Shown here piece by piece: positions 5,278 to 27,672 of a DNA stretch of 37,717 nt. The notes under the pieces are model-generated. The model ran no database searches, was not told the origin of the DNA, and worked only from the letters and a program-made list of their open reading frames with translations. Position 1 is the first letter of the stretch, and every line of letters begins with the position of its first letter. The translations under genes were made by a program, and so were the position numbers. This DNA comes from Candidatus Thorarchaeota archaeon (lineage in GTDB: Archaea; Asgardarchaeota; Thorarchaeia; Thorarchaeales; Thorarchaeaceae): NCBI GenBank assembly GCA_013388835.1, contig JACAEL010000005.1, forward strand, positions 1-37,717. The letters run 5' to 3'.

Positions 5278-6348
5278 ATGGATTTCATCACAATCCCATG
5301 TACTACTCGAAACGGGGCGAAGCGAGAGTTTGAGTGGGATGCAGATGAGAGTTCCCTTTTGCTCGACAAGTGCGAGATTGTCGAGGTTGACCTGCGTCCT
5401 CTCGCCAATGCGAAGAGTCTAAAGACGCTCAGCATCAGTGCAAACCGGATTGTGCAGATTGACCTGACCCCTCTGGCAGGCTGTGAGGCACTTGAGAGCC
5501 TCAACCTATTCAAGAATCCTCTGACCGCTATAGACCTGACCCCTCTCTCATCCTGTGTTCGACTGCAAGAGCTGAATGTAGGGGCCGGCGCGCTCACAGT
5601 GATTGACCTGACCCCGTTGTCCAGGTGCACGGACCTCAGAAGGCTTCGACTCTTCGGCAATAAGCTCGTCCAAGTTGAGTTGCATCCGTTGGCTGCCTGT
5701 TCGGCGCTTGAGACACTGGAACTCGAGAACAATAGCCTTCACACAATCGACCTGTCGCCATTGAAGAGGTGTGCCCGCTTGGTTCAGCTCAACCTCATGT
5801 ACAACGCTCTTGAGAGAATAGACCTATCGCCGCTCTCCGCGTGTCGGGAGCTGAAGTACCTGTACCTCCAGAGCAATTCACTCAAGTCAATCGACCTGAG
5901 CCCACTGTCTGAATGCTCCAGCCTGACAATCCTGAGGCTTGGAGGAAACGAACTGGCGGCTGTGGACCTTGACCCTCTATCGAAGTGTCGGGGCCTGAGA
6001 AGGCTTGAGCTCGCCATGAATGGCATCGACTCACTTGACCTGACGCCTCTGTCCAGCTGCATGGAGCTCCGCGCGCTTGATGTTGCGGGTAACGCGTTAA
6101 AGACACTGGACCTTGCGCCATTGGCGGAGTGCACTTCACTTGAAGAGCTGTATCTCTTCTCAGACCACCCTCACGAGAATGCGTTCACCGAATTGGACCT
6201 GTCGCCCCTGTTCAGGCTCCGCGACCTTGAGGACCTCGGTCTTCCGGAGAAGGTGGACTTGGTCGCTGATGAGGACCTGAAGAGACTCAAGGCCAAGTCG
6301 CCAGCAGTTGAGGAGTTGATTGAAGAGGAAAGAATCCACTGGAAGTGA
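5278..6348 (+). CDS. Leucine-rich-repeat protein, 24-residue repeats
   Basis: A 356-residue soluble protein made almost wholly of leucine-rich repeats. Ten consecutive units of exactly 24 residues follow the pattern (I/V/L)DL(T/S)PLxxCxxLxxLxLxxNxL. An eleventh is stretched to 29 residues, a degenerate unit ends the solenoid, and a charged helical cap follows. A ~35-residue N-terminal cap 'FITIPCTTRNGAKREFEWDA' precedes the array. Most units keep the Cys at position 9. LRR solenoids bind proteins. With no signal peptide or membrane helix this one should act in the cytosol, perhaps as an adaptor. The ATG at 5278 has GGAG 8 bases upstream, so the GTG at 5269 is less likely. A TATA-like TTGATAAGA lies at 5212-5220. 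It is monocistronic. Confidence 0.88.
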   Translation: MDFITIPCTTRNGAKREFEWDADESSLLLDKCEIVEVDLRPLANAKSLKTLSISANRIVQIDLTPLAGCEALESLNLFKNPLTAIDLTPLSSCVRLQELNVGAGALTVIDLTPLSRCTDLRRLRLFGNKLVQVELHPLAACSALETLELENNSLHTIDLSPLKRCARLVQLNLMYNALERIDLSPLSACRELKYLYLQSNSLKSIDLSPLSECSSLTILRLGGNELAAVDLDPLSKCRGLRRLELAMNGIDSLDLTPLSSCMELRALDVAGNALKTLDLAPLAECTSLEELYLFSDHPHENAFTELDLSPLFRLRDLEDLGLPEKVDLVADEDLKRLKAKSPAVEELIEEERIHWK

Positions 6349-6450
6349 GCAGCGTGCGACCTTGCGGTGTAGGAGCGTCATGCCGAGTCGATGCACGAGT
6401 GGTCTGAGGAATGAGGGCAGATCGGTGGTCCTCCGATGCTAGTTCGAAGT

Positions 6451-6460
6451 CCATATATGC
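6451..6460 (+). promoter_or_regulatory. TATA box for the protein disulfide oxidoreductase gene
   Basis: CCATATATGC lies about 37 bases before the TTG start. The expected transcription start near 6482 leaves a leader of about 10 bases that carries GGTGA. Confidence 0.55.
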
Positions 6461-6492
6461 GTGTGCGATTGCTCCTGACACGGTGAAGCTCA

Positions 6493-7140
6493 TTGGTTGT
6501 CGAGTTTGATGAAGAGACCAAAGAGAAGGTCCGGGAGATGTTCGCTGCTCTCGACCATGATGTCACGATGCACGTATTCATACGGGATCACTCGTGCCTC
6601 TACTGCAATGACACACTTGCAATCGCTCAAGAGGTGGCGGACCTGTCACCCAAGATTCATGCAAAGGTTCACAGAGGGGAGCTCAACACAGAGACTGCTG
6701 CAAGACTTGGAGTCAAGCTGACGCCTGCAATCGTACTCCACGGGAAGGAGCAATACAAGGTCCGCTTCTACGGAATCCCTGCTGGGCATGAGTTTGGGGC
6801 ATTAATCGGGTCGATCGTCGACGTTTCAGCGGGCGTCGTGCCGCTGCCACCCGATGTGATTGAGGATATCAAGGCTATCGACCGGCCAGTGCGCATAAAG
6901 GTCTTCACCACGCCGCAGTGTCCATACTGCCCCGGGATGGTTCGACTGGCACATCAATCAGCGATAGTCAACCCGTTGATTGAGGCTGACATGGTGGAAG
7001 CATTGGAGTTCCAGGAACTGGCCGCGAAACATCAGGTGTATGGCGTGCCGAAGACAGTCTTCAATGAGAGTGTTTCCGTCGAGGGCCTGACTCCACCAGA
7101 AATCTTTGTTGAGAAGTTGTACGATGCTGTGGGGAAGTGA
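6493..7140 (+). CDS. Protein disulfide oxidoreductase (two thioredoxin folds)
   Basis: A 215-residue protein with two thioredoxin-fold halves, as in the archaeal PDO/glutaredoxin-like family (usual length ~220-230). The first active site is CLYC (Cys35, Cys38) and the second CPYC (Cys143, Cys146). The cis-proline loops are 'KLTPAI' (about 75-80) and 'YGVPKT'. Known members reduce, oxidise and isomerise cytosolic protein disulfides and are reduced by a thioredoxin-reductase homologue; one is encoded 380 bases away on the other strand. The start is TTG at 6493, backed by GGTGA 6 bases upstream and the TATA box at 6451. No ATG is available near this position. Confidence 0.88.
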   Translation: MVVEFDEETKEKVREMFAALDHDVTMHVFIRDHSCLYCNDTLAIAQEVADLSPKIHAKVHRGELNTETAARLGVKLTPAIVLHGKEQYKVRFYGIPAGHEFGALIGSIVDVSAGVVPLPPDVIEDIKAIDRPVRIKVFTTPQCPYCPGMVRLAHQSAIVNPLIEADMVEALEFQELAAKHQVYGVPKTVFNESVSVEGLTPPEIFVEKLYDAVGK

Positions 7141-7155
7141 CAGTCACAGACGGCC

Positions 7156-7250
7156 ACACAGCGAACGGACGCATGAGACTGTGTCGAGTGCGGTGGTTGT
7201 CGTCATGCGGTCCGCGCGTTTCGCCACTTGAGCAAGGACCGCGGCACTCG
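7156..7250. ncRNA. Candidate structured element (two abutting stems)
   Basis: ACACAG (7156-7161) pairs with CTGTGT (7179-7184). Immediately after it CGAGTGC (7185-7191) pairs with GCACTCG (7244-7250), enclosing GCGGTCC (7207-7213) with GGACCGC (7236-7242). All pairings are perfect Watson-Crick. The stretch lies just after the PDO stop codon in a gene-free region. It could be a small RNA, a 3' UTR structure or a termination signal. Strand and function are unknown, and it matches no RNA family I know. Confidence 0.35.
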
Positions 7251-7515
7251 GAAACAGAGTCTACCTGACTTGCGCGTGAGTCGAGCGGTCGTTAGCTTGT
7301 GACGTCTGGGATCTGTAATCTCGGACGGGAGAACTGTGACTCAGGCCTTCCGAAGGATTAGTCGAACATGAGGAGTCAGCACACTACCACGCCCTGAGAG
7401 CGACCGCGTTCAGGTGTCTACGGCTGCTTGGCCGGGGACTGGTGCCAGCCTTGACACACACCATAGCGTCAGAGTAACGAACCAATGAAGAGACAAGTCC
7501 GCCGAGTACCAGCGG
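7251..7515. other. Intergenic, no gene seen
   Basis: The rest of the convergent gap between the PDO and thioredoxin-reductase genes. No convincing reading frame, tRNA or repeat; only the small CCTT-CCG-AAGG hairpin near 7347. Confidence 0.5.
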
Positions 7516-8454
7516 TCATGGCTGTTCGCTGCGGGCATAAACAACGGCCTGCTCGCTCACATACTTGTAAGCCTGATAGAAGGCATGGACGCCCTCAGCC
7601 ACGCCGGTTATGGCCTGCTTGAACTCCGTGTCCGCCACATCACCTGCAGCGAACACCCCGGGTACATTGGTCCTGCTTGACCTGTCGATTATGATCTCGC
7701 CCTTGGCATTCACCTTAACGCCAAGCTTCCTTGCCAGTTCAGACTGAGGAATTCCGCCAATTGCGACGAACACCCCATCGACTTTCAAGTGGTTCTGACC
7801 GTTGAACGGTCGGTCCAGCTTCACCCCTGTCACGCGGTCAGTCCCGCTTATCTCCGTGATGTTCGTCTCGGTAAGGACCTGAATCCTCGGTTCTCTCTCA
7901 ATCCGCGCGGCATTGATCGGTTCTGGCCGTATCTTCTTGCCGCGATAGATCATGTACACCTTTGGGCAGTACTTTGCAAGGAGAAGTGCCTCTTTGGCTG
8001 CACTGTCGCTTCCCCCTATGACTGCCACAGTCTTACCGTTGTACAGCGGCGCGTCACACAGAGCGCAGTAGCTGACACCGCGGTTCCTGAACTCGTCGTG
8101 GCCCGGTATCTCGAGCTCCCTGTCCTTCATGCCCGTGGCAAAGAGGACTGTTCGTGCAACGTACGACTTGCTGTCAGTCACGACATAGAAAAACCCGTGT
8201 TCATCCCTGAAGACATCCCGGACGACGGCGACTTCCATGTCGACGGGGTACTCCTGGGCGTGCGCCTTGAGCTTCTCCGCAAGCTCCTTCCCCGTGAGCT
8301 GAATGAACCCGGGATAGTTGGCCACGTCGTCGGTGAGTGTGATTGTCCCGCCATCCACCTCTCCAATCACTGCACAGGAGAGACCGAGACGTGCTGCATA
8401 CATTGACGCGGCGTACCCGGTCACTCCGCACCCTATCACAACGAAGTCATACAC
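7516..8454 (-). CDS. trxB: Thioredoxin reductase-like flavoprotein
   Basis: A 312-residue NAD(P)H/FAD-dependent disulfide reductase, the usual length for low-molecular-weight thioredoxin reductase. The FAD-binding GCGVTGYAA is at about residues 8-16, the redox CALC is Cys130/Cys133, the nucleotide-binding GGSDSAAKEA is near 147, and the second FAD motif is 'GVFAAGDVAD' near 270. It would pass electrons to a thioredoxin-fold partner. The glutaredoxin-like gene directly upstream overlaps its start by 8 bases, and the PDO gene is nearby, so these probably form one disulfide-reduction system. It ends in TGA. NADPH versus NADH preference is not clear from the sequence. Confidence 0.9.
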   Translation of the reverse strand: MYDFVVIGCGVTGYAASMYAARLGLSCAVIGEVDGGTITLTDDVANYPGFIQLTGKELAEKLKAHAQEYPVDMEVAVVRDVFRDEHGFFYVVTDSKSYVARTVLFATGMKDRELEIPGHDEFRNRGVSYCALCDAPLYNGKTVAVIGGSDSAAKEALLLAKYCPKVYMIYRGKKIRPEPINAARIEREPRIQVLTETNITEISGTDRVTGVKLDRPFNGQNHLKVDGVFVAIGGIPQSELARKLGVKVNAKGEIIIDRSSRTNVPGVFAAGDVADTEFKQAITGVAEGVHAFYQAYKYVSEQAVVYARSEQP

Positions 8455-8698
8455 TTCCAGTGCCCTCCAGTTTCCTCTTTAGCCTCCGTTCAACTCTCCT
8501 GTCGAAGCCCACGAACACCTCGCCATCAATGACAGCAACAGGGACTGCACGTTGCTTGCTGACTTCAAATAGCTCCCGGACGACATTGTCACCGTCAAGA
8601 ATGGACTTCTTCTCCATTTCGACACCGTTTGCTGCGAGAAACTCGATGAGCTTTGCAGCGTGCGGACACTGAGGTGCGATGTACACTGTAGCCTTCAT
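8447..8698 (-). CDS. Glutaredoxin/NrdH-like protein with CxxA site
   Basis: An 83-residue thioredoxin-fold protein, beginning with the strand 'MKATVYIAPQCPHAAKLIEF'. The usual CPxC active site reads CPHA, so only the N-terminal Cys11 is kept. A 'VPVAVIDGE' segment supplies the cis-Pro loop, and 'VFVGFDRR' is the typical glutaredoxin ending. Monothiol forms act through mixed disulfides or by binding Fe-S clusters, not by ordinary dithiol exchange. It is co-transcribed with thioredoxin reductase (8-base overlap), so it is probably a substrate or partner of that enzyme. The ATG has an AGAGGAGG about 10 bases upstream. A TATA-like element (revcomp of 8759-8772) lies further up. Confidence 0.78.
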   Translation of the reverse strand: MKATVYIAPQCPHAAKLIEFLAANGVEMEKKSILDGDNVVRELFEVSKQRAVPVAVIDGEVFVGFDRRVERRLKRKLEGTGSV

Positions 8699-8945
8699 GA
8701 GCCTGCCAGCCTCCTCTGTGCGGATTCCAGGAGGTACTCATGAGGGCAACGTGGTCCCGGTTGATATAACTTGCGACCTGTAACCGGCGGCTGTCAACTC
8801 AGGCCTTTGATGAATCCCCTCTTCAGAGGGCATTAGCTCACGGAGCACTCCATTCACGACCGTGCCCCGCTCTGCAACCGCTACTGAACAGTCATAAGCA
8901 CGAACGCACATACCAGTCTGCAAAACAGAATCGATGAGGAGAACG

Positions 8946-9428
8946 ATGGACATGGAAAAGCAAGAGACCCTCAAGTTTATCGATAGGCAGATAGAACTTG
9001 AAGAGAGGATCATCCGGATTGTAGAAGAGGTCACATCCAAGCTTGGAAGCGACTTCGTGAGGGAACTCCTTACAGGCATCAGTCAGGACTCGAAGAAACA
9101 TGCCATCCTTCTGAAGGCTCTACGAAGAGCTGTGGAGAGTCCGACGCCCTTCATTAGTACCAGAAACCGCGACGATGTTGCGAGAGGCATTGACAAACAC
9201 ATCCAGCTCGAAGCGAAGGCCGTGGAGACCTACCAAGAGCTTGCAGACAAGTCGGACAACGAGCAGGTCAAGACCATCGCGCTCATGATACGGGAAGATG
9301 AGATTCGACACCACCAGCTGATGAAGGAGCTTCACAAGACTATCGTGGAACAGGAGACCCTCAGTGAGGACCTGATTTGGGAGCTCATCTGGAAGGACTC
9401 GCCATGGCATGGTAGTCCCGGTGGCTAG
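8946..9428 (+). CDS. Ferritin-like helical protein (rubrerythrin-fold)
   Basis: An all-helical protein of 158-160 residues with charged, Glu- and His-rich helices in a four-helix-bundle pattern. 'IELEERIIRIVEEV', 'SKKHAILLKALRRA', 'IQLEAKAVETYQEL' and 'IREDEIRHHQLMKEL' each place E or ExxH where ferritin-like di-iron proteins carry ligands. It may be a rubrerythrin-type peroxide-handling or iron-binding protein. No rubredoxin domain is present. A second protein with the same style is encoded at 17718. Starts at 8934, 8946 and 8952 are all ATG. AGGAG at 8937-8941 rules out the first as main start but does not separate the other two. It ends in TAG. Confidence 0.75.
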   Translation: MDMEKQETLKFIDRQIELEERIIRIVEEVTSKLGSDFVRELLTGISQDSKKHAILLKALRRAVESPTPFISTRNRDDVARGIDKHIQLEAKAVETYQELADKSDNEQVKTIALMIREDEIRHHQLMKELHKTIVEQETLSEDLIWELIWKDSPWHGSPGG

Positions 9429-9691: not shown

Positions 9692-10234
9692 CTAGTTGGA
9701 GTACTTCTCAAGCTTCCGTGTGAACTTGTAGTCCAAGCTTTCGATTCCAATGCCGGTCTTCGCAGAGATCATCTGAGTTTCAATGCCGTATGGTGAAGCC
9801 AGGCGTGTCATCTCCGCTTCCACCGAGTCGAAACTCCCTCCTAGCAGGTCTATCTTGTTTCCCACTAGGATGAACCGGTCGCCGTCGCCGTTTCGTACAC
9901 GCAGGTTGCTGTTCTCTTCAATCAGTGGAATCCAGTAGCCAAAGATGCTATCCAGTGTGGCGAGTTTGGTGACATCGAAGAAGAGTAGTCCCAGCTTGGC
10001 TCCTCTCACCATTCCCTTGAGACTCTCAATGAATCTCAGCTGGCCCCCAAAGTCCCAGAGGGACAGAACCACCTCACGTCCGTCCGGAAGGACCACCTTC
10101 TTGGTGTCGAAACTTGCGCCGACTGTGGTCTTCAGCAGGGCAGGGTCTGGAAAGATTCCCTTGGTCCATCTGGATGTGAAGCTGGTCTTTCCGCACTCGG
10201 TTTCTCCCAAGACCACCGCCTTCACAATTGTCAT
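9692..10234 (-). CDS. Ras-superfamily small GTPase (operon with membrane proteins)
   Basis: A 180-residue GTPase with a complete motif set: P-loop GETECGKT (10-17), switch-I Thr in 'KTTVGASF' (about 37), WDFGGQ (60-65), NKID (126-129) and SAK (157-159). WDxGGQ is the Arf/MglA-like form of the Rab/Ras WDTAGQ, and the switch-II Gln is kept, so GTP hydrolysis should be normal. There is no C-terminal Cys for prenylation and no N-terminal amphipathic helix, so membrane contact would need a partner. It is the last gene of a five-gene operon containing a longin/roadblock-like protein and two many-pass membrane proteins, and starts 54 bases after the preceding stop with GAGGAA ahead of its ATG. It ends in TAG. 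Confidence 0.9.
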   Translation of the reverse strand: MTIVKAVVLGETECGKTSFTSRWTKGIFPDPALLKTTVGASFDTKKVVLPDGREVVLSLWDFGGQLRFIESLKGMVRGAKLGLLFFDVTKLATLDSIFGYWIPLIEENSNLRVRNGDGDRFILVGNKIDLLGGSFDSVEAEMTRLASPYGIETQMISAKTGIGIESLDYKFTRKLEKYSN

Positions 10235-10288
10235 GGCTCATTCCTCGCGGTCGTTTCGGAGTAGTCGATTCTGTGTCCGCATTTTACT

Positions 10289-11632
10289 CTATTGCTTGCG
10301 AACTCTGGGCCGTAGACGAATCGGACTGCTTGCAGCCAGCATAACTCCGCACAGAACTGTAAGACCTGCGCCAAGAATGGGTCCCAAGTCCTCAATTGTG
10401 AATATCACTATCGCATACATGAGGGCCATAAGCGAGAATACCACGAAGTTACGTCCGGCCCTGCCTGCGCCTGCCGCCCTGAGTCTCTGTGCAACTATCA
10501 GGTAGCCTATGATTCCAATCACAATCATCAGTGCGAGGTAGGGGAAGATGGTGTCGTAGACCCAGCGCCCTCCACGGACGTAGTAGTTCCCAAGGACGAG
10601 AAGGACCGAGCTGAACGAAATCAGTATGAGCCTAAGAGCCGCAAAGGCCTGAGGCTTCAGCAGAGAGTAGTGAGCTGCCATTGTGAAGCACACGACACCT
10701 ACCAGTCCCATGATCCACTCTACGAAGAGTACGGCTTCGGGTTGTGTGCCTAGGGTCTCTATGAGCCCAAAAACGACCGAATGCGATGCAGCAAGCAGAG
10801 CTATCACAATCATCATCACAGCCATGTAGCGCGGGATGCGAGTGCCGCCCTCGGTTGCCTGCTCGACAAAGTACTCCAGAGGCGCGATTGCCACGAGACC
10901 AACAAAGAGCGCACCCAGAGCGAAGAGCCACACGTCAATTATCGACGATGTGAGAAGTGCGCTCATTGCAATTGGGATGCAGGTCAACAAGAGTGCGAAG
11001 AGTGTGAACAGCATGACCGCTCGACGCCATGGCTTCAGTAGGGATCCAAGGACTGAGCCCGAAACGACAACAGGCAAGAAGATGAGCATGAAGGCCTGTT
11101 GCCCCTCTGCGACCAATCCCTGGATTATGGTCGCCCATGACAGAAGAAACGAAACGTTGAGAAGAACGAGACCGACAGTGAACGGGGAGTAGGCGGTCAA
11201 GACCAACCATATGGCCAGGAGAAGGCTTGTGCTGAAGACGACTGCGGTCGCAGCGATCAGTACAGGAGAGGTCTCGGTTGGTGTTGTCGCCGTGAACGCG
11301 ACTGTTAGGGCAGTGACTCCGAGTGTGATCGCGAGGCCCAGCTGGGGCAGCCGCCGACTCGACGTTCCCACATGAATCGCGCAGTTGATCGTGCACAGGA
11401 AGAATGCCATAAGCACTGGCCTTTGCACCACCGTTCCCTGCACGAAGGCTGACATGACGACACTCACGGTCAGGAAAACACAAGCCCCTGCGAAGAGCAG
11501 GAGCGCAACGAACGTGTTGGTGGTGACTCGTTTTCTTATGCCCCTCAGTGTCAGCAAGAAGCTAACAGTTGTCGCTGATATGATTACGACTGAGAGGAGA
11601 GCGCCCACCTGGAATGCAAGGTCGAAGTCCAT
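10289..11632 (-). CDS. Polytopic membrane protein, paralogue B
   Basis: A 447-residue integral membrane protein with about 13-14 hydrophobic helices and very short loops. It matches no transporter family I recognise. It is a diverged copy of the protein encoded just upstream. Shared blocks include 'PLEYFVEQAT...TRIPRYM', 'LLAASHSVVFG', 'LFVEWIMGLVGVVCFTMAA' and 'LGNYYVRGG', in the same order. Conserved polar residues inside helices (the SHS, the E/D-W pair) suggest more than structural filler. It starts 6 bases after the previous stop with AAAGGAGGTG 9 bases before the ATG, so the two are surely co-translated. Its tail is basic ('RLRPRVRKQ'). The role may be as membrane receptor or anchor for the GTPase; that is inference. 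Confidence 0.85.
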   Translation of the reverse strand: MDFDLAFQVGALLSVVIISATTVSFLLTLRGIRKRVTTNTFVALLLFAGACVFLTVSVVMSAFVQGTVVQRPVLMAFFLCTINCAIHVGTSSRRLPQLGLAITLGVTALTVAFTATTPTETSPVLIAATAVVFSTSLLLAIWLVLTAYSPFTVGLVLLNVSFLLSWATIIQGLVAEGQQAFMLIFLPVVVSGSVLGSLLKPWRRAVMLFTLFALLLTCIPIAMSALLTSSIIDVWLFALGALFVGLVAIAPLEYFVEQATEGGTRIPRYMAVMMIVIALLAASHSVVFGLIETLGTQPEAVLFVEWIMGLVGVVCFTMAAHYSLLKPQAFAALRLILISFSSVLLVLGNYYVRGGRWVYDTIFPYLALMIVIGIIGYLIVAQRLRAAGAGRAGRNFVVFSLMALMYAIVIFTIEDLGPILGAGLTVLCGVMLAASSPIRLRPRVRKQ

Positions 11633-11638
11633 CTGTCT

Positions 11639-13045
11639 CTACACCTCCTTTGAGGACCGCTTCAGCAGCCTCATTCTCTTCATCCCGGCCGGGTTGCTTC
11701 CCAGGAGTAGTATGGTCGCCGCACTCATCAGAGTGAGTACGACAAAGAAGGGGATGGAATCGGAGAACATTGCCACGATGCCTATTGCCACTGCTGCCAT
11801 CACAAAGCGGAAAAAGCGTGAGGCTGCGGCCCTTGATCCGGTGCGCCTCATTGAGAGTGACACACGGATGAACATGGCGATGGCGAGAATCATAAGAATG
11901 GCGACGGGGATATAGAGCGGCTGCAGCTCCCATCTTTCGACACCAGCCATGTCTGCCCGCACATAGGGGTGCCCTAAGGTTATGAACACAGAGTCAGCAA
12001 CAACAAAGAAGTCCACGGCGCGACTGATGGACTTGTCGCTGAGTGTTGATGACAAGGAGGCGAGAGTGAAACAGCTGATAGCGAGGACTCCGATCACCCA
12101 GTCAGTGAAGAGCAGACCCAGATCCCAGGGCTGTACGAAGTCTAGCACTTCCATCCAGTCTCCCCCGATGAAGGCATACGAAAAGTCCACGGAGTGAGTG
12201 GATGCAAGTAGTGAGACAAGGATGAGGGTCAACGACAGAAAGACAGGTGTTCTGGCTCTGGTAATGCTTGCCTGATCCAGGAAGTACCCCAGAGGTACCA
12301 TCAGACAGATGGATGCCAGCCCAGCCACGAGTGCGTAGGCAAATACGGGGTACTGCATTGACATGAGCGACCCATAGCATAGCATGGTCATGTTGATCAT
12401 TGCGAAGAAGGAGACACTCAGACTGATGATGTATCTCCAAGGTCTGAGCATCGATACGAGTACCGCCGCAGACACCACCGCCGGCATGAAGACGAGTGGA
12501 AAGTAGTGGGGCGAAGTCTCGAGGACTCTGAGAGAACGAGTTGCAGCAGCAATCATCACCAGATTCGTCAACACAAGAGTGGACACCGAGAATGGAGATG
12601 GGGCGGCTATCACGATTCGGATTGCCAGCAATAGTGAAATGATATAGAGCGATGCGGTCGTTGCAATCAACATCGTATTGGTGAGGTCACTAGGGACGAA
12701 CGCAGAAGCTGTCGCAATGCCACCCAGAATGAGAACTCCTGCCGCAGTTACGCGTCTCCTTATGTCACTTGTTTCAAGGATTTGCAGCTGTGCAAGGATA
12801 AGCATGGCATAGAACAGACCCAGCCAGGCACGATATCTCGTAGAGTCTGGTGGACTTAGCACGAGAGTGACCACAATCATCGGCACAGTGGCGCAGGCTG
12901 CTCCAAAGAAGATGAGTCCTCTTCGAGTGGCCGCGGACACCTTTGTACGGATACGAAGAAACCCGCGGAAGAAGAGCAGGAGCGACCCTGCAAGCAGTAG
13001 AGCTGAAACCACGACTCCTGCAAAGAGCGCATCTGCATAGTCCAT
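11639..13045 (-). CDS. Polytopic membrane protein, paralogue A
   Basis: A 468-residue membrane protein with about 14 helices, first of a tandem pair. The blocks shared with its neighbour are 'PLGYFLDQAS...ARTPVFL', 'LLASTHSVDFS', 'LFTDWVIGVLAISCFTLAS' and 'LGHPYVRAD', giving a fixed pattern (Y-F-x-[DE]-Q-A; A-[ST]-H-S-V; [DE]-W-[IV]-[IM]-G). No ATP-binding, MFS or known receptor signature was seen. The C-terminus is short and basic and faces the cytosol if the helix number is even. The ATG at 13045 has GGAGG 7 bases upstream. It follows the longin/roadblock-like gene by 15 bases and ends in TAG. Family unknown; a dimer of the two paralogues is plausible. Confidence 0.85.
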   Translation of the reverse strand: MDYADALFAGVVVSALLLAGSLLLFFRGFLRIRTKVSAATRRGLIFFGAACATVPMIVVTLVLSPPDSTRYRAWLGLFYAMLILAQLQILETSDIRRRVTAAGVLILGGIATASAFVPSDLTNTMLIATTASLYIISLLLAIRIVIAAPSPFSVSTLVLTNLVMIAAATRSLRVLETSPHYFPLVFMPAVVSAAVLVSMLRPWRYIISLSVSFFAMINMTMLCYGSLMSMQYPVFAYALVAGLASICLMVPLGYFLDQASITRARTPVFLSLTLILVSLLASTHSVDFSYAFIGGDWMEVLDFVQPWDLGLLFTDWVIGVLAISCFTLASLSSTLSDKSISRAVDFFVVADSVFITLGHPYVRADMAGVERWELQPLYIPVAILMILAIAMFIRVSLSMRRTGSRAAASRFFRFVMAAVAIGIVAMFSDSIPFFVVLTLMSAATILLLGSNPAGMKRMRLLKRSSKEV

Positions 13046-13060
13046 GTCAAAGCCTCCGAA

Positions 13061-13432
13061 CTATCTCCAGAGATCTCCAATCTCTTTTCCTCTCTTCTTG
13101 ACGAGGTCATCGATGCTTGAGGACAGTTCCTCGTTGCTGGCCAACGGTCTCTTGACGATTGCCTTCAGTGCGTCGCCAGTTTCGCGTTCCCCATCGCCCT
13201 CGCATATGAAGAGGTGTTCCTTGACCGTTGCATATCCGATGACTCCGCGCTCTGACTTCATGAACATTGGCTGACCCTCGTCCGTTGTCTCAGCATGCTC
13301 AAGTGCCGCCGAAACCAGCTGAACAATGCCGGTCAGAAGGGCGATTCTCTCATCATTTGACTCTTCCCTCGGATAGAGGACAGCCGACTCCATATTCTCG
13401 AGCTTCACCCGTGCCACAAGTCTAATGACCAC
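13061..13432 (-). CDS. Longin/roadblock-like small protein
   Basis: A 123-residue protein whose predicted order of elements is strand-strand-helix-strand-strand-strand-helix-helix: 'VIRLVARV', 'SAVLYPRE', a helix around 26-45, 'PMFMKSERGVIGYATV', 'HLFICEGD', then two helices. That order fits the profilin-like longin fold, or a roadblock/LC7 domain lacking its first helix. Such domains are the usual partners and regulators of small GTPases (MglB with MglA; Rag-Ragulator), and a GTPase closes this operon. The start is GTG at 13432, with GGAGG 10 bases before it, 6 bases after the upstream stop. The fold is inferred by eye and would need a structure comparison. Confidence 0.6.
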   Translation of the reverse strand: MVIRLVARVKLENMESAVLYPREESNDERIALLTGIVQLVSAALEHAETTDEGQPMFMKSERGVIGYATVKEHLFICEGDGERETGDALKAIVKRPLASNEELSSSIDDLVKKRGKEIGDLWR

Positions 13433-13438
13433 TACCTG

Positions 13439-13714
13439 TCAACCTCCAAAGGCTTGCTTGAGCCAGTCAACCTCAGAACCCTTCTTCTTTGAGTCAGACC
13501 TCACGGGGACGACCACATCTCTGATACCCAGTCCGCTCGGTGAGTTGTAGAGCGTCACGAGCAACTCGTGGTCCTTCTCACACTTCACGATAAGGGTGGG
13601 GGACCGTCCCTTGGTGGAGATCTCCTCCTTTATCTTGGCGGCTTCAGTTTCACTCAGGCGAACGACTGCCTTGCTCTTGCATTCTGGACAAGAGAACACT
13701 ATGGTTTCGTCCAT
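13439..13714 (-). CDS. Zinc-ribbon-like small protein heading the GTPase operon
   Basis: A 91-residue protein. It opens with the strand 'ETIVFSCPECKSKAVVRLSE', holding CPEC, then has a lone Cys followed by a possible His ligand in 'LIVKCEKDHELLVTLY', so the site may be C2-C-H or incomplete. The remaining C-terminal part is charged ('VRSDSKKKGSEVDWLKQAFGG'). It resembles small Asgard zinc-ribbon proteins that precede membrane or trafficking genes; no name is assigned. The ATG at 13714 is preferred to one at 13726, because a TATA box centred near 13749 would place transcription start at about 13723, downstream of the longer start. Its TGA is 6 bases from the next start. Confidence 0.65.
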   Translation of the reverse strand: MDETIVFSCPECKSKAVVRLSETEAAKIKEEISTKGRSPTLIVKCEKDHELLVTLYNSPSGLGIRDVVVPVRSDSKKKGSEVDWLKQAFGG

Positions 13715-14029: not shown

Positions 14030-15934
14030 ATGACTGTTGAGGATATCATTCGTACTGATGGCGGACCCGCTCTGGTTCTCTCCAATGAAGCGGTCGTCCG
14101 AGGTGCTCTCGAGTCAGACGTGAAGGTTGTGGCTTTCTATCCGGGGAGTCCAACCTCTGAGATACTTGACTCGTTCGGTGAGCTCTTGGAGCACTTTGGA
14201 GACTACAAGATGCATATCTCGGCCAACGAGAAAGTGGCACTTGAGACGATAGCGGGTGCCTCCATGGCGGGCGTGCGGTCATTCACGTCGATGAAGAGTG
14301 TTGGCATGAATGTTGCCAGCGACTCAATGTTCAGCATCGCCTACACCGGACTCAGAGCTGGTGCTGTGTGTCTGATAGCGGACGACCCTCATGCTCACTC
14401 CTCGCAGTCAGAACAGGATGGACGTTACTTTGGAGAAGCAGCCTATGTTCCGATGATCGAGCCCTCCACCGCTCAAGAGGCCTACGAGATGACGAAGTGG
14501 GCGTTCGAGGTCTCGGAGCGGCACAGAACGCTTGTGATAATCCGGACGACTACTCGCGTTAACCATCAGAGAGGCGTTGTCCACTTCGGTGAACTCAGGA
14601 GGACTCCCTTTGTCAAGAAGAAGTGGCAGGATGTGAAGGGAGAGTACTTCACCGTCGGGGCTGTTGCAAGAGCGTTAAAGGCCAAGCTGCTGGCGAAGCG
14701 GGACGCACTGCGTGAAGAGTTCGAGAAGAGCTCCTTCAACCGGATAGAACCCGGGGAAGGGAGAGTTGGAATCATCACAGCTGGCGTGTGCTATCTCCAC
14801 TCAAAGGAAGCGATGGACAGTCTGCAGGTGAAGCTGCCAGTCCTGAAGCTGGGCACTCTGCATCCGCTACCGGAGCGTATGATATCTGAGTTCATTGCTA
14901 CACTGGATGCCGTTGTGGTGGTTGAAGAGCTCTCACCGTACCTTGAGACCCGAATCGCTGCTATCGCCAAGGATGCCAGACCCGGTCTCCGTATCTTCGG
15001 AAAGAAGAGCGGTCACTTCAGAGAGATGCTGGAGTACGACGTCCCCATTGTTGAGAAGGCTCTGGCGAAGGTCCTAGGAATGAAGACGAGTCTTGACTAC
15101 GATGCCGTATTGGCCAGGGCAGAGCAGCTTAAGAGGGGACTTCCGGAGAGGAATCCCATCTTCTGTCCGGGATGTCCTCATCGTGGAACCCTCTGGGCGT
15201 TCAGACAGGCACTCGACCGACTCCGAATCAGGAAGGGCATCGTGTTCAACAACGACATTGGGTGCTACTCAATGGCATTCCTCTCACCGAACAGCTTCAG
15301 TGACTCCATGCTTGCAATGGGTGCATCGGTCGGACTCTCCGCAGGAATGCAACTCGTGCTTGAGGACAAGGTCATAGCAATGGTGGGCGACAGCACGCTA
15401 TACCATGCAGCGCTGCCCGGAATAGTCAATCTCATTCATCACAGTGCGAATGTGACACTTTTCGTCCTTGACAATGCTGTCACTGCCATGACAGGCCAGC
15501 AGTTCAACCCCAATAGCCCCTATGATGCTGGAGGAAGGCCGGCAGTCAAGATCAACATGGAGAAGCTGTTCGAAGCACTGGGTGCCAGATCAGTCACGGT
15601 CATCGACCCCTACCAGACCCGGGACTGTATAAAGCCCATAATGGAGGCCATATCAGCGGAAGGATTCAATGTGATAATATCACGTCGGGAGTGTGCGCTG
15701 TATGGCGACCGTGAGAAGAAGAGGCGTGGTGAACCAATCGTGCCAAGCGAGAACGACCGGGATGCATGTCGCAGTATCTATGCGTGCATGAAGGAGTTCT
15801 ACTGTCCGGCTATAGTCGTTGATCCCAATGACCGGAAGATGACAATACAGCAGGACCTCTGTGACGGCTGTCTTGAGTGCAGACAGGTCTGTCCGGTACA
15901 CGCCCCGCATCACGTGGGAGAAGGAGGTCGATAG
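14030..15934 (+). CDS. iorA: Indolepyruvate ferredoxin oxidoreductase, alpha subunit
   Basis: A 634-residue TPP-dependent 2-ketoacid:ferredoxin oxidoreductase subunit of usual length. It oxidises aryl pyruvates (from aromatic amino acids) to aryl-acetyl-CoA and reduces ferredoxin. The order is pyrimidine-binding domain (about 10-170), transketolase C-terminal-like domain (about 240-340), TPP-binding domain with 'FCPGCPHRGT' (near 380), 'GDSTLYHAALPG' and 'DNAVTAMTG' (near 455-490), then a ferredoxin domain. The last [4Fe-4S] motif is complete (Cys611, 614, 617, 621). The preceding one reads C580-x2-I583-x2-C586-x5-C592-P, so its second Cys is Ile. Such a site may hold a [3Fe-4S] cluster. It ends in TAG, one base before the iorB ATG. 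Confidence 0.93.
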   Translation: MTVEDIIRTDGGPALVLSNEAVVRGALESDVKVVAFYPGSPTSEILDSFGELLEHFGDYKMHISANEKVALETIAGASMAGVRSFTSMKSVGMNVASDSMFSIAYTGLRAGAVCLIADDPHAHSSQSEQDGRYFGEAAYVPMIEPSTAQEAYEMTKWAFEVSERHRTLVIIRTTTRVNHQRGVVHFGELRRTPFVKKKWQDVKGEYFTVGAVARALKAKLLAKRDALREEFEKSSFNRIEPGEGRVGIITAGVCYLHSKEAMDSLQVKLPVLKLGTLHPLPERMISEFIATLDAVVVVEELSPYLETRIAAIAKDARPGLRIFGKKSGHFREMLEYDVPIVEKALAKVLGMKTSLDYDAVLARAEQLKRGLPERNPIFCPGCPHRGTLWAFRQALDRLRIRKGIVFNNDIGCYSMAFLSPNSFSDSMLAMGASVGLSAGMQLVLEDKVIAMVGDSTLYHAALPGIVNLIHHSANVTLFVLDNAVTAMTGQQFNPNSPYDAGGRPAVKINMEKLFEALGARSVTVIDPYQTRDCIKPIMEAISAEGFNVIISRRECALYGDREKKRRGEPIVPSENDRDACRSIYACMKEFYCPAIVVDPNDRKMTIQQDLCDGCLECRQVCPVHAPHHVGEGGR

Positions 15935-15935
15935 T

Positions 15936-16565
15936 ATGCACAAAGACACTTACAACATAATCTTCACCGGCGTGGGGGGTCAGGGGCTGATGCTCCTCTC
16001 TGCAGTCCTTGGTAAGGCCGCCCTACTCTCAGGAATGGACGTCATGACAGGCGAACAGCATGGTCTCTCACAGAGAAGCGGTTCAATCTACGTCCACTTC
16101 AGAGTCGGCAGACCGATGTCACCACTCATCCCGTATGGGAAAGCTGACCTGATGATCTCAATGGAGGCAACAGAGGCATTGAGATATGTTGAGTACCTTC
16201 GAGACGGAGGGGTTGTCATCATGAGCAGCAGGGTCATGCCGCCGCCCGGAGAAACTGAGCGGGTCGCGCTGGACAAGAAGAAGACAGAACAGTACTTCAC
16301 AGTCGAGCAAGTACGAGAGAGACTGAGTCAGGTCACATCGAGGCTGGTCGTACTGGACTCGCTTGCTCTTGCAGTTGAGGCAGGCAATCCACGGACAGAG
16401 AACTCGGTCCTCGTGGGTGCAGTGTGTTCATGCCCTGACTTTCCAATCCCTGCTGAGAAGGTGCGAGAGGCACTCTTGGGACTCGTGCCCCCAACTACAA
16501 GGGATGCCAACTCAAGAGCATTTGACCTGGGCATGAATTCTGGAGCAGCTTGTCTCGGGAACTAG
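15936..16565 (+). CDS. iorB: Indolepyruvate ferredoxin oxidoreductase, beta subunit
   Basis: A 209-residue gamma-type subunit that pairs with IorA. 'NIIFTGVGGQGLMLLSAVLG' is the nucleotide-like loop at the start of the pyruvate:ferredoxin oxidoreductase gamma domain, and 'GEQHGLSQRSGSIYVHFRVG' is the family's most conserved stretch. The ATG at 15936 is chosen because GGAGGT lies 7 bases ahead and it follows the iorA stop by one base; the frame is open further upstream inside iorA. IorA and IorB form the cytosolic heterodimer or tetramer. It ends in TAG. Confidence 0.93.
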   Translation: MHKDTYNIIFTGVGGQGLMLLSAVLGKAALLSGMDVMTGEQHGLSQRSGSIYVHFRVGRPMSPLIPYGKADLMISMEATEALRYVEYLRDGGVVIMSSRVMPPPGETERVALDKKKTEQYFTVEQVRERLSQVTSRLVVLDSLALAVEAGNPRTENSVLVGAVCSCPDFPIPAEKVREALLGLVPPTTRDANSRAFDLGMNSGAACLGN

Positions 16566-16588
16566 TGGGACTAGAGGCTCGCACTAGA

Positions 16589-16597
16589 GTTATTAGC
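16589..16597 (+). promoter_or_regulatory. TATA-like box for the flavoprotein gene
   Basis: GTTATTAGC ends 30 bases before the ATG at 16627. The expected start near 16619 leaves almost no leader, so the mRNA is likely leaderless or nearly so. Confidence 0.45.
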
Positions 16598-16626
16598 TTC
16601 TCGCCACAGTTCACGTCTGAACGCGC

Positions 16627-17640
16627 ATGTCCACAGACCGGCATTACGATACCATCATCATAGGCGGTGGACCAGCAGGCTCATCGGCGGCGCTACACCT
16701 TGCCTTCCATGAGCGGTCGGTCCTTGTCCTCGACAGGGGAACGAGCCCGATGGCCTTCCACACCAACAGCATCATGAACTTCGCTGCTGGCCCCACCTAT
16801 TCAGAGGGTCGAACACTCCTCAGGCAGCTGCAGGGCCTTGCTCGATCGGCAGGAGCGCGTTTTCTGGCTGGCGATGTGGTCGAGGTCTCCGGCAGGTATC
16901 CGGAGTTCAAGGTACGTACCGACCACAGCTACAGAACGTCAGACCGAGCAGAGTACAGAGCGAAGACCCTTCTGATAGCCACGGGGACGGCAAGGAAGCA
17001 TCCCAAGGTCAAGGGCCTGTGGAGAGGATGGCTACCAGTTGCAAACGTGGGCAATGCCGCCTTCTACTGTCCCGACTGCGAGGCGCCGCTGTGTAAGGGC
17101 AAGAAGGTCTTGGTCGTCAACGCGGGTACTGTAGGCAGTGCACTCCATGTTGCCAACTCACTGTCCAGATTCACCAAGGACATTGAGATTCTCATGACTG
17201 AAGATGCATACATACCGCTTGAGAGTCAGGACCTCTCTGTGCTGGATAAGTCTCCTTTCCCTTGGCACCGCGGTACAATTGCAGCAGTCGACTTTCCACG
17301 GCCGGGCCGGGTTCAGTCCGTGACACTCAACACCGGACAGAGACTGAAGGCTGAGGTCTTCTTTGTGGCGCATGTCGCCGAACCGAGGTCTCAACTTGCC
17401 CAGTCTATCGGTGTACAGGTGGACCAGAGAGGGGCCGTGCTCACAGACCATCGGGGAAAGACGAACATTGAGGGAGTCTGGGCCGCAGGTGATGTGCGTC
17501 CAATCACACAGCAGGTCGCCATGGCTGTAGGCACAGGCAACTACGCGGCTCTCATGATTAACCAGTTCCTTGGCAATGACTATGAGTCTGAACAGTCATT
17601 TGATCATCCTGACCACCGGTCTCCTCTTCACATGGATTAA
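16627..17640 (+). CDS. Thioredoxin-reductase-like FAD oxidoreductase
   Basis: A 337-residue pyridine-nucleotide-disulfide oxidoreductase related to, but clearly diverged from, thioredoxin reductase. The FAD motif IIGGGPAGSSAA is at about 11-22, and the second FAD motif 'GVWAAGDVRP' is near 290. The redox pair is CPDC (Cys148, Cys151) with a third Cys at 156 ('CEAPLC'). The NAD(P) loop is weak: 'VVNAGTVGSA' replaces GxGxxA. Partners are unknown. It follows IorAB and precedes ferritin-like and thioredoxin-like genes, so it may link ferredoxin or NAD(P)H reducing power to thiols. It has its own promoter and ends in TAA. Confidence 0.82.
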   Translation: MSTDRHYDTIIIGGGPAGSSAALHLAFHERSVLVLDRGTSPMAFHTNSIMNFAAGPTYSEGRTLLRQLQGLARSAGARFLAGDVVEVSGRYPEFKVRTDHSYRTSDRAEYRAKTLLIATGTARKHPKVKGLWRGWLPVANVGNAAFYCPDCEAPLCKGKKVLVVNAGTVGSALHVANSLSRFTKDIEILMTEDAYIPLESQDLSVLDKSPFPWHRGTIAAVDFPRPGRVQSVTLNTGQRLKAEVFFVAHVAEPRSQLAQSIGVQVDQRGAVLTDHRGKTNIEGVWAAGDVRPITQQVAMAVGTGNYAALMINQFLGNDYESEQSFDHPDHRSPLHMD

Positions 17641-23929: not shown

Positions 23930-25603
23930 ATGGTGATGCTACGGATACGAGCAGGTCTACGCGCAGCGATAGATCAGTTCTTTTCGCTGACCGCACTGAC
24001 GCCAGAGAGGAAGCGGGCCATGCACGAACTCTTGGCTGCGGCTTTCATCCTCTTCGCTGCAGCGACACTCGTGTCTGTCTGTGTACTGTACTTCGTGACA
24101 CCACCCCTGATATCAGAAGCCGACTTCACTCGACTGTCTGCGATATCCATCATCGCCATGGTTGGATTCACTGTGTCGGTGTTTCTTAATCGACATGGGA
24201 TGAGGCGAATGGGACCAGCATTGTTCCTCCTTGTGGTCATCCTAGTCGTGTTGCTGGGTGACAATCCGGAAGAGGTTGCAACTGGAAGGTCTCTAATCTA
24301 CTTTGTAATCCCTATAATGACAGCTGGCATTCTCATCTCTCCTCGGGCCGCCTTTGGTGGCGCAGCGGCATCAGGATTGGCCGTGTCCGCCGCGGGTCTT
24401 CAGGCTGGACTCTTCCCGAGCATTCCCGCAATCACAGCCTACTTTGCGCTGGCGGTGATCATGTGGGGCTGGGGGAAGAGCCTAGAGGATGCGCTGGTGG
24501 CGCTGGGGGAAAGAGAGCAATGGTATCGCTTTCTGACGGAAAGTGCTAGGGACGCCATCATCGCTACGAGCATGGACCTGAAAACAACCTACGTGAGCCC
24601 TGCCGTGAAGTCGCTGTTTGGATACGATCCAGAAGAGGTCACGGGCCGAGCAGTGACAGACTTTGTGACCCCCGAGTCGGCTGAGCTTCTCGCTAAGGAG
24701 CTAGCAGCAACTCTGTCAGCTGACACCTCAGGGACGTACTATCAGCATGAATGGGCACCATTGGACCTTGACGCAGTCCGGCGCGATGGAAGCATCGCCC
24801 ACGTGGAGGTGTCAAGAGAAGTGATGCGCGACAACGAAGGCAAGGCTGTCGGATTTCTTGCTGTCGCCCGAGACGTCTCAGAACGAATGGCTGCGAAGAA
24901 ACAGCTAGAGCGGGCGTACTCTCTCGCCTCATTCTACAACAACATTCTTGCACACGATCTGTCTGCAATGCTGCAGTCGACGGTCATGGGAATCGAGCTC
25001 ACGCTGACATCAAGTGCTCTCCCAAAGCACTATCGAGGACACCTCGAGGACGCTCTGGCTCAGGCCCAAGCCTGTGCGTCGCTGGTGCAGAACGTGCGTA
25101 AACACTCTCGTCTGATTGAGGAGCGTCCGCAATTGGTTCGGACCGACCCTTCTGTGGCACTGACCAGTGCGATAGAGCGGGTGAAGCGGAGCTATCCGGG
25201 AAGAGACATAGACATCCGTGTAAGCATGAAGTCTCAGAATCTCTCGGTGATGGCGGACGAGTTTCTTGAGGAGCTGCTGTTTAATCTCCTGCACAACTCA
25301 GTGAAGGCTGACACTCACTCTTCTGTCGTCATAGATGTCGCGGTGAGTAGGACGGAGCATGGTCAGGCGTTAATCACAGTAGACGACCATGGCAGCGGCA
25401 TGGACGATGAAATGAAGAAGTCGGTCATGAGCGTTGAAAGCACAGGGTCTACACAACATGGACTGGGTTTGCGTCTTGTCAGTCAGATTGTTCAGAGATA
25501 TGGCGGGACATTCTCCTTTGCTGACAGAGTCGCCGGGGACCACACTCAGGGCACAAGGGCTATAGTGCAGATCCCTCTGGCACCGCAGAAGGAGGTCTCT
25601 TAG
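23930..25603 (+). CDS. Membrane PAS-domain histidine kinase
   Basis: A 557-residue sensor kinase. Six membrane helices lie in about 33-181, resembling a multi-pass sensor module. A PAS domain follows (about 196-315: 'WYRFLTESARDAIIATS' to 'GFLAVARDVSERM'). The phosphoacceptor region 'NNILAHDLSAMLQ' puts His342 before Asp-Leu (HDL, not the bacterial HE). The HATPase domain has an N box (Asn452/Asn456 in 'LLFNLLHNSVKA'), a G1 box DDHGSGM (485-491) and a G2 box GLGLRLVSQI (511-520). It should autophosphorylate in response to a membrane or PAS signal. No response regulator gene is adjacent. The ATG at 23930 or 23936 follows GGGTGA. It ends in TAG. Confidence 0.88.
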   Translation: MVMLRIRAGLRAAIDQFFSLTALTPERKRAMHELLAAAFILFAAATLVSVCVLYFVTPPLISEADFTRLSAISIIAMVGFTVSVFLNRHGMRRMGPALFLLVVILVVLLGDNPEEVATGRSLIYFVIPIMTAGILISPRAAFGGAAASGLAVSAAGLQAGLFPSIPAITAYFALAVIMWGWGKSLEDALVALGEREQWYRFLTESARDAIIATSMDLKTTYVSPAVKSLFGYDPEEVTGRAVTDFVTPESAELLAKELAATLSADTSGTYYQHEWAPLDLDAVRRDGSIAHVEVSREVMRDNEGKAVGFLAVARDVSERMAAKKQLERAYSLASFYNNILAHDLSAMLQSTVMGIELTLTSSALPKHYRGHLEDALAQAQACASLVQNVRKHSRLIEERPQLVRTDPSVALTSAIERVKRSYPGRDIDIRVSMKSQNLSVMADEFLEELLFNLLHNSVKADTHSSVVIDVAVSRTEHGQALITVDDHGSGMDDEMKKSVMSVESTGSTQHGLGLRLVSQIVQRYGGTFSFADRVAGDHTQGTRAIVQIPLAPQKEVS

Positions 25604-27065: not shown

Positions 27066-27096
27066 ATTGGTCGGATTCAGTCCGAGGTGCGGAGAC

Positions 27097-27672
27097 GTGG
27101 ACTCATACATCTACAAGGTGTGCGTCGTTGGCGACCCAGGGGTCGGAAAGAGCGCGACCGTTCTCATGTGGTCGTCCGGGTCGTTTCACCAGGAGTATCA
27201 GCTGACTGTGGGAGTGCAGCACTTTACAAGGAGCCTCAACATATCCAGCAACGCGGGTGTCCTGAGCGTGAAACTGATTCTGTGGGACATCGGCGGACAG
27301 GCGACCTTCAAGATGATTCGGCCGATGTTCTACAAGGCTGCACGAGGGGTGGTTGTCATGTTTGACCTGACCAACAGAGCTTCCTTCGAGGGTGTCACCA
27401 ACTGGATTCGAGAGGCTGACTCGAGCATTGGGCGAAGGGTGCCAATCGTTCTGGTAGGCAACAAGGCGGACCTTCCATCCCAGGTCACAATCGACGAGGT
27501 GAAGCGTCTTGCTCAACAGATTGGCGCAGTGCCTGTTGTGTCAAGCGCCAAGACAGGGTCTAATGTAGCAGACATATTCCAGATCGTGGCGGAGATGATT
27601 AGCCAAGAGAACGAGACCCTGACAACGGCTGCCGAAATGCATCCCGCTCGCACTATCAGCGCTGGAAGCTAA
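27097..27672 (+). CDS. Rab/Ras-like small GTPase
   Basis: A 191-residue GTPase with all five motifs: GDPGVGKS (12-19), switch-I Thr37 in 'QLTVGVQHF', WDIGGQ (63-68), NKAD (122-125) and SAK (150-152). Overall it reads as Rab-like ('MFYKAARGVVVMFDLTNRASFEGV...W'), but the switch-II start is WDIGGQ, not WDTAGQ. It keeps the catalytic Gln. The C-terminal ~20 residues are flexible and lack Cys, so no prenylation is expected. A GTG at 27097 with GAGGTG 7 bases upstream is the start; a TTG at 27067 is the alternative. It is monocistronic, with a strong A+T-rich promoter. It ends in TAA. Confidence 0.9.
   Translation: MDSYIYKVCVVGDPGVGKSATVLMWSSGSFHQEYQLTVGVQHFTRSLNISSNAGVLSVKLILWDIGGQATFKMIRPMFYKAARGVVVMFDLTNRASFEGVTNWIREADSSIGRRVPIVLVGNKADLPSQVTIDEVKRLAQQIGAVPVVSSAKTGSNVADIFQIVAEMISQENETLTTAAEMHPARTISAGS

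Follow-up and report, generated by a model that had tools for sequence, protein, structure and literature searches.

Five closely spaced genes on a contig from a Thorarchaeota genome, of which only the last encodes a product with a Pfam identity above the cutoff (a small GTPase), raise the question of whether they form one functional module and, if so, what a pair of many-pass membrane proteins does in the same operon as the GTPase. The contig was analysed at its full length (37,717 nucleotides, from now on referred to as the window) and belongs to a genome of the Asgard family labelled f1 (Thorarchaeota). The reading preferred here, to which we give a probability of about 0.6, is that the products of the operon make up a membrane-anchored signalling unit around a small GTPase, in which a membrane sensor sets the nucleotide state of this Ras-like protein. 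The content, order and co-occurrence of the genes are observed and the function is inferred from them.

Layout and conservation of the gene cluster

The genes are located on the minus strand and run as one unit from 13714 to 9692, beginning with a zinc-ribbon protein (91 aa, 13439..13714) and a longin-like small protein (123 aa, GTG start, 13061..13432), continuing with a membrane protein, memA (468 aa, 11639..13045), and its tandem paralogue memB (447 aa, 10289..11632), and ending with a Ras-superfamily small GTPase (180 aa, 9692..10234). All five open reading frames were recovered as an earlier note on this DNA had described them, with its spacings of 6, 15 and 6 bases, and to these a gap of 54 bases between memB and the GTPase gene, absent from that note, can be added. 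The note had also placed a Shine-Dalgarno sequence before nearly every start, which is correct for memA and memB (both GGAGG-type) and for the GTPase gene (a weaker GAGG), but no such sequence is evident at the first gene. Redox genes are found on both sides of the operon (8447-9428 and 14030-17640 in the window), encoding a glutaredoxin-like protein, a rubrerythrin-like protein, IorAB and an FAD/NAD oxidoreductase, and several of them are conserved at the locus in other Thorarchaeota; those closest to the operon are oriented away from it.

When searching a set of 228 Asgard genomes, relatives of memA were found in 21, all of family f1, and a profile of the 123-aa protein and one of the membrane protein each matched the identical set of 21, leaving the remaining 207 without a match. 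The cassette GTPase is present only in genomes that also carry the membrane gene. The order zinc ribbon, longin-like protein, membrane protein is kept in 22 out of 22 cassettes (type I), with intergenic gaps of -4 to 66 bases, and the GTPase gene comes next in 19; the three cassettes without a following GTPase consist of two at contig ends and one tandem cassette in genome G195 that shares the GTPase of the next one. No genome with scattered cassette genes was found among the 228. The proposal of a five-gene operon whose members stay together in related genomes therefore stands for the window as far as the single unit is concerned, and for the linkage in general, but the conserved core has four genes and not five: zinc ribbon, longin-like protein, membrane protein and GTPase. 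A genome-wide peptide-pattern scan with memA revealed no relatives, and a scan with patterns from the alignment of the longin-like protein gave 18 loci, most of them labelled Thorarchaeota, two from MAGs with the label Lokiarchaeota and some with no label more specific than 'archaeon'.

A further gene set, here named type II loci, was found through weak matches of the zinc-ribbon profile. These loci contain a zinc ribbon, a small roadblock/longin-type protein, a membrane protein of 450-500 residues and a Ras-like GTPase; the zinc ribbon and the small protein are adjacent to the type II membrane gene in 24 of 24 cases and the GTPase in 22 of 24. For the zinc-ribbon calls a permissive cutoff of E 0.01 was applied within each locus, and the weakest call has E 0.004. 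Three type II loci are located in other Asgard families (f2, f12 and f24), and in the genome of the window itself (G000) contig C18 carries two type II cassettes arranged back to back (locus L119, 3501-5685 on the minus strand and 6006-9110 on the plus strand). At this locus a GTPase gene is situated between the two cassettes, and two more Ras-like GTPases are encoded within 6 kb. A type II cassette in genome G218 (L122:2746-5845) harbours a second small roadblock-like gene after the GTPase, making a five-gene unit.

Many of the type I cassettes are found at one ancestral locus, flanked by the rubrerythrin-like gene and iorAB, and because of these shared surroundings part of the linkage has to be ascribed to common descent. 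Taken further, the same observation would mean that the genes are neighbours through inherited synteny only and work separately, in the same way as iorAB, the rubrerythrin-like gene and others accompany many type I cassettes. Synteny can account for the data only in part, as the genes directly adjoining the unit are mostly oriented away from it, genus g7 (L045, L046) has an intact cassette at a different locus, the composition recurs in the type II loci of other Asgard families and the presence and absence of the genes match exactly. That the genes are merely inherited neighbours is for these reasons barely credible.

The GTPase, the longin-like protein and the zinc-ribbon protein

The product of 9692..10234 matches Pfam Ras above the cutoff (E 2.1e-21), and its best match in the PDB is a Thorarchaeota Rab (7ezb, E 1.3e-14), its closest solved structures being Rabs. 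The motifs of a GTPase were identified as G1 (GETECGKTS), the switch I residue T37, G3 (DFGGQ), G4 (NKID) and G5 (SAK), and in an alignment of 19 cassette GTPases the residues K16, T37, Q65 (the catalytic Gln), N126-K127, D129 and S157-A158 are invariant. Judged by its sequence, the protein thus meets the criteria of the Ras superfamily, that is G1-G5, the P-loop Lys, the switch I Thr and the catalytic Gln. Rabs in the eukaryotic sense carry one or more prenylated cysteines at the C-terminus. The absence of a lipidation cysteine, which had been claimed for the window protein, extends to all 19 aligned GTPases, none of which has a cysteine near the C-terminus, and an assignment as a Rab in that sense was rejected accordingly. 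A Rag/Gtr identity was likewise rejected, since the match to Gtr1_RagA is below the cutoff (E 0.0052) and the protein, at 180 aa, ends after the G domain.

No Pfam match was found for the 123-aa protein, nor any match to a curated longin or Roadblock-LC7 sequence profile; the best hit of the Robl_LC7 profile reaches only E 0.077 and concerns two out of 22 members of the family. An AlphaFold2 model made with 22 relatives (pLDDT 86) showed the order β-β-α-β-β-β-α-α, and this arrangement, without an N-terminal helix and with two C-terminal helices, is that of a longin (PMC10933270). When the model was run through Foldseek against the PDB the top matches were Ragulator, which ranks first, dynein roadblock, the longin of Sec22b, MglB and Asgard roadblocks, with probabilities near 1 but weak E values (5e-3) and TM-scores near 0.5. 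The earlier note had called the protein longin/roadblock-like and had named an unrelated fold as what would refute this; the predicted order is that of a longin and the top matches are all of that fold, and the protein is hence regarded as longin-like by predicted fold and not by sequence family. The alignment of relatives revealed two conserved motifs, FMKSxxGVIGY and the C-terminal GKEIGDLW.

The small proteins of the type II loci show weak matches to the FUZ/MON1/HPS1 longin domain (E 0.0018 to 0.06), and no profile similarity could be detected between the small proteins of the two types. In the GTPase tree the type I and type II proteins form separate clades and are not sisters, and a simple co-inheritance of all four genes by the two types was for that reason discarded. 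As the small proteins are without similarity and the GTPases belong to different clades, parts of the unit may have been exchanged. Either these partners diverged rapidly, or different members of the two superfamilies were recruited by the membrane protein on more than one occasion; the second is not proven and would, if true, be the stronger evidence for function.

The first gene encodes a protein with the putative zinc ligands CPxC...Cx3H (C13, C16, C49 and H53, in the numbering of a 95-aa open reading frame), a conserved GRSPT sequence and a C-terminal tail DW[LV]xxxFGG. The start at 13714 is favoured by its relatives over the longer reading frame from 13726, and Pfam Zn_ribbon_Brz gave a weak match in all 20 relatives.

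The membrane proteins and their relatives

memA and memB are about 28% identical (blastp), so that the suggestion of two homologous paralogues could be verified. They are many-pass proteins as suggested, with 15 helices each rather than the ~14 proposed: the AlphaFold2 model of memA (pLDDT 90.9, pTM 0.90) has 15 long helices. The charges of the loops alternate and the profile supports a topology with the N-terminus outside and the C-terminus inside; the loops facing the cytosol, among them 200-204 (LRPWR), 262-267 and 401-405, are positively charged and on the whole the better conserved ones. Conservation in the family peaks at H284, further conserved positions being D2, Q258, W203-R204, P267, D315-W316, G319 and P452. 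The motifs H-S-V and [DE]-W, noticed earlier in the two window proteins, are in other words genuine family features, with H284 at the top and Q258, W203, D315 and W316 among the next.

Searches for relatives of the membrane proteins in Pfam, NCBIfam and the PDB, any transporter or enzyme family included, were negative, and PDB profile searches with alignments A2 and A6 gave nothing useful. Foldseek returned no significant full-length match for memA, the best having E 0.2 and the TM-score to the query being at most 0.32 among the top 50. The top matches are mostly 7TM receptors and rhodopsins (E of at least 0.2, TM-scores below 0.5), none of which covers the protein. GPCRs and other 7TM receptors consist of a seven-helix bundle with the N-terminus outside and act by ligand-driven nucleotide exchange on a G protein. 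A GPCR identity, raised by the Foldseek list, was not adopted, as no match was significant, and for want of a significant full-length match a sensor fold of memA is not established.

The comparison of type I and type II membrane proteins by hhalign revealed an end-to-end homology (445 columns, prob 97.5%, E 8.5e-12), and the two halves of the type II protein are homologous to each other over 159 columns (prob 96.9%, E 1.7e-10). For the comparison of the two types, controls with reversed profiles and with unrelated MFS transporters gave E values of at least 0.05, and an artefact of helix composition was rejected. The type II protein is, as inferred from its homologous halves, two seven-helix units joined by one helix. 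A direct repeat test inside the type I protein was not significant (prob 12%), and the internal repeat of memA and memB consequently rests on their homology to type II.

Proteins of about 265 residues corresponding to a single unit were found in the Asgard families f13-f16, a single genome (G080) having up to ten matches; these proteins match both units of type II, the second (E 1e-13) better than the first (E 2e-6). The single-unit gene is located, in 16 of 22 loci, directly behind a gene for a small soluble protein of ~133 residues (for example L204:134-1317, L205:3464-4665, L249:2693-3906, L252:2402-5087 and others), and no GTPase was detected with the pair at the single-unit loci. The ~133-aa protein starts with a likely helix followed by a VAIVDVN strand, like a roadblock protein, which is a matter of pattern only without evidence of fold. 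A profile comparison with the type I small protein was empty, and shared descent is claimed neither for it nor for the type II small proteins. A possible variant was noted in genome G129 of family f20 (L156:486-2674), where the gene for a 243-aa seven-helix protein and a roadblock-like gene are arranged divergently, with an Arf/MglA-like GTPase after the latter. The superfamily, absent from Pfam and the PDB, thus offers a growth path from one to two seven-helix units across several Asgard families.

In the tree the memB genes form one clade (support 100/99), and since they do so one duplication would have made the pair; the tandem arrangement of memA and memB is by this phylogeny a single later duplication in the lineage that unites the window with six further genomes. 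The membrane gene is duplicated next to a single GTPase gene in the window and in genomes G188 and G195. Identities to the window proteins are 24-40% for the membrane protein (compared with memA) and 57-74% for the GTPase, making the membrane protein the fastest evolving part.

These features bear on the role of the membrane protein. The main alternative to a sensor is an effector gated by the GTPase, such as a transporter, a lipid scramblase or an envelope enzyme, with the longin-like protein as GAP or GEF. The many helices, the buried conserved polar residues H284, Q258 and D315 and an internal duplication of nearly the whole protein would all suit it, these features being common in transporters too. 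Its weak points are the lack of similarity to the transporter and enzyme families searched above, the pairing of the single-unit relatives with a small soluble protein and no detected GTPase, and the manner of evolution: the membrane protein changes fastest and has been multiplied beside a GTPase that remains in one copy, which favours a sensor over an effector. The effector is not excluded, and we consider it rather unlikely.

A different role again is that of a membrane landmark or trafficking module, in which the 15-helix protein is a passive dock that places the GTPase on patches or protrusions in a Rab-like manner. In eukaryotes longin proteins serve Rab traffic, and both the Rabs among the closest structures and the missing membrane anchor of the GTPase would agree with such a role. 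A passive anchor, however, would not require 15 helices and a set of buried, conserved polar residues, nor duplications recurring in individual lineages, and the landmark is accordingly judged quite improbable.

A putative membrane-to-GTPase switch and its relation to known systems

Returning to the signalling unit, the preferred reading, the 15-helix protein would sense something at or in the membrane and its cytosolic face would dock the longin-like protein, with the zinc-ribbon protein as an adaptor. The docked assembly could then recruit the GTPase, which is without a lipid anchor of its own, and set its GDP/GTP state, after which the GTP-bound form would carry the signal onward; the tandem of memA and memB may act as a paired or alternative sensor feeding one GTPase. 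The physical complex, the binding among the proteins, the sensor role, the direction of the signal and the existence of a ligand are all inferences, without interaction data or a complex model behind them.

The closest known systems were compared part by part. An actinobacterial conservon (CvnA-D) is a four-gene operon of a membrane sensor kinase, a roadblock protein, a small protein and a Ras-like GTPase (PMC13343842; PMC4316618), and its products are, according to Komatsu 2006 as cited in PMC4316618, a membrane-associated complex resembling G-protein-coupled regulation. The Asgard unit is alike in being a conserved four-gene operon that combines a Ras-like GTPase with a membrane protein (the putative sensor), a protein of roadblock fold and one more small protein. 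It differs in its membrane protein, which has 15 helices and lacks a kinase domain (CvnA, by comparison, is a histidine kinase whose transmembrane helices are few), in that a zinc ribbon takes the place of CvnC, and in that the small protein has the predicted order of a longin instead of a roadblock and the GTPase is Ras/Rab-like. Conservon identity was rejected, there being no kinase (HATPase) domain in 29 membrane proteins and no CvnC.

The eukaryotic Rag–Ragulator system is similar in that a Ras-superfamily GTPase is held at a membrane by roadblock-fold proteins which report a polytopic sensor, and SLC38A9 is a membrane sensor of that system. Unlike it, the Asgard unit has neither a Rag heterodimer nor a C-terminal roadblock domain and contains a single longin-like protein, and its membrane protein is unrelated by sequence or PDB fold search. 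In MglA/MglB, too, the gene of a Ras-like GTPase is located near that of a small roadblock/longin-superfold protein, MglB being the GAP/GEF of its paired GTPase. MglB is, however, a roadblock protein with an N-terminal helix in a unit without a membrane protein, while the Asgard unit has the predicted longin topology and the 15-helix protein is always present.

The Rab, roadblock and longin proteins already described from Asgard archaea belong to the same phylum and superfamilies (PMC10933270), and the Thorarchaeota Rab 7ezb is also without a lipidated tail. As a rule, the small GTPase genes of MK-D1 do not share operons with genes for roadblock, longin or TRAPPC3 proteins, and genome layout was of little help for pairing GTPases with regulators (PMC10933270); the GTPase and longin-like genes described here do share an operon, together with a membrane protein. 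No published description of the system was found in the literature searched, which left subscription journals and preprints mostly outside. The statement that no described system has this composition is so far upheld, conservons and Rag–Ragulator being the closest and the defining parts of both being absent. The Asgard gene module itself is real and recurrent, it has apparently not been described before, and it includes a new superfamily of membrane proteins; its function is inferred.

More tentatively, the module could be an Asgard-own form of receptor-coupled small-G-protein signalling, in which a seven-helix lineage was first paired only with a small roadblock/longin-type protein and was later doubled and became fixed in operons alongside a Ras-like GTPase and a zinc ribbon serving as adaptor. 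The result would be receptor-G-protein-like and unrelated by descent to known receptors. This history is possible, and we regard it as doubtful. Should the partners bind one another and nucleotide exchange be under the control of the membrane protein, the operon would represent membrane-receptor-to-Ras signalling in the archaea closest to eukaryotes.

Asgard genomes contain dozens of small GTPases and the pairing of regulator and GTPase is hard to assign; here the operon provides a genetically fixed set of GTPase, longin-like partner and membrane partner that is open to direct expression and testing. Elsewhere in the window two long open reading frames of 556 and 774 aa (28806-30476 and 32067-34391, both on the plus strand) are without a Pfam match. 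The contig also encodes a second Ras-family GTPase at 27067-27672 on the plus strand (Pfam Ras, E 3.6e-39), ~30% identical to the cassette GTPase and located near genes for a PAS histidine kinase (23930-25603) and an MFS transporter.
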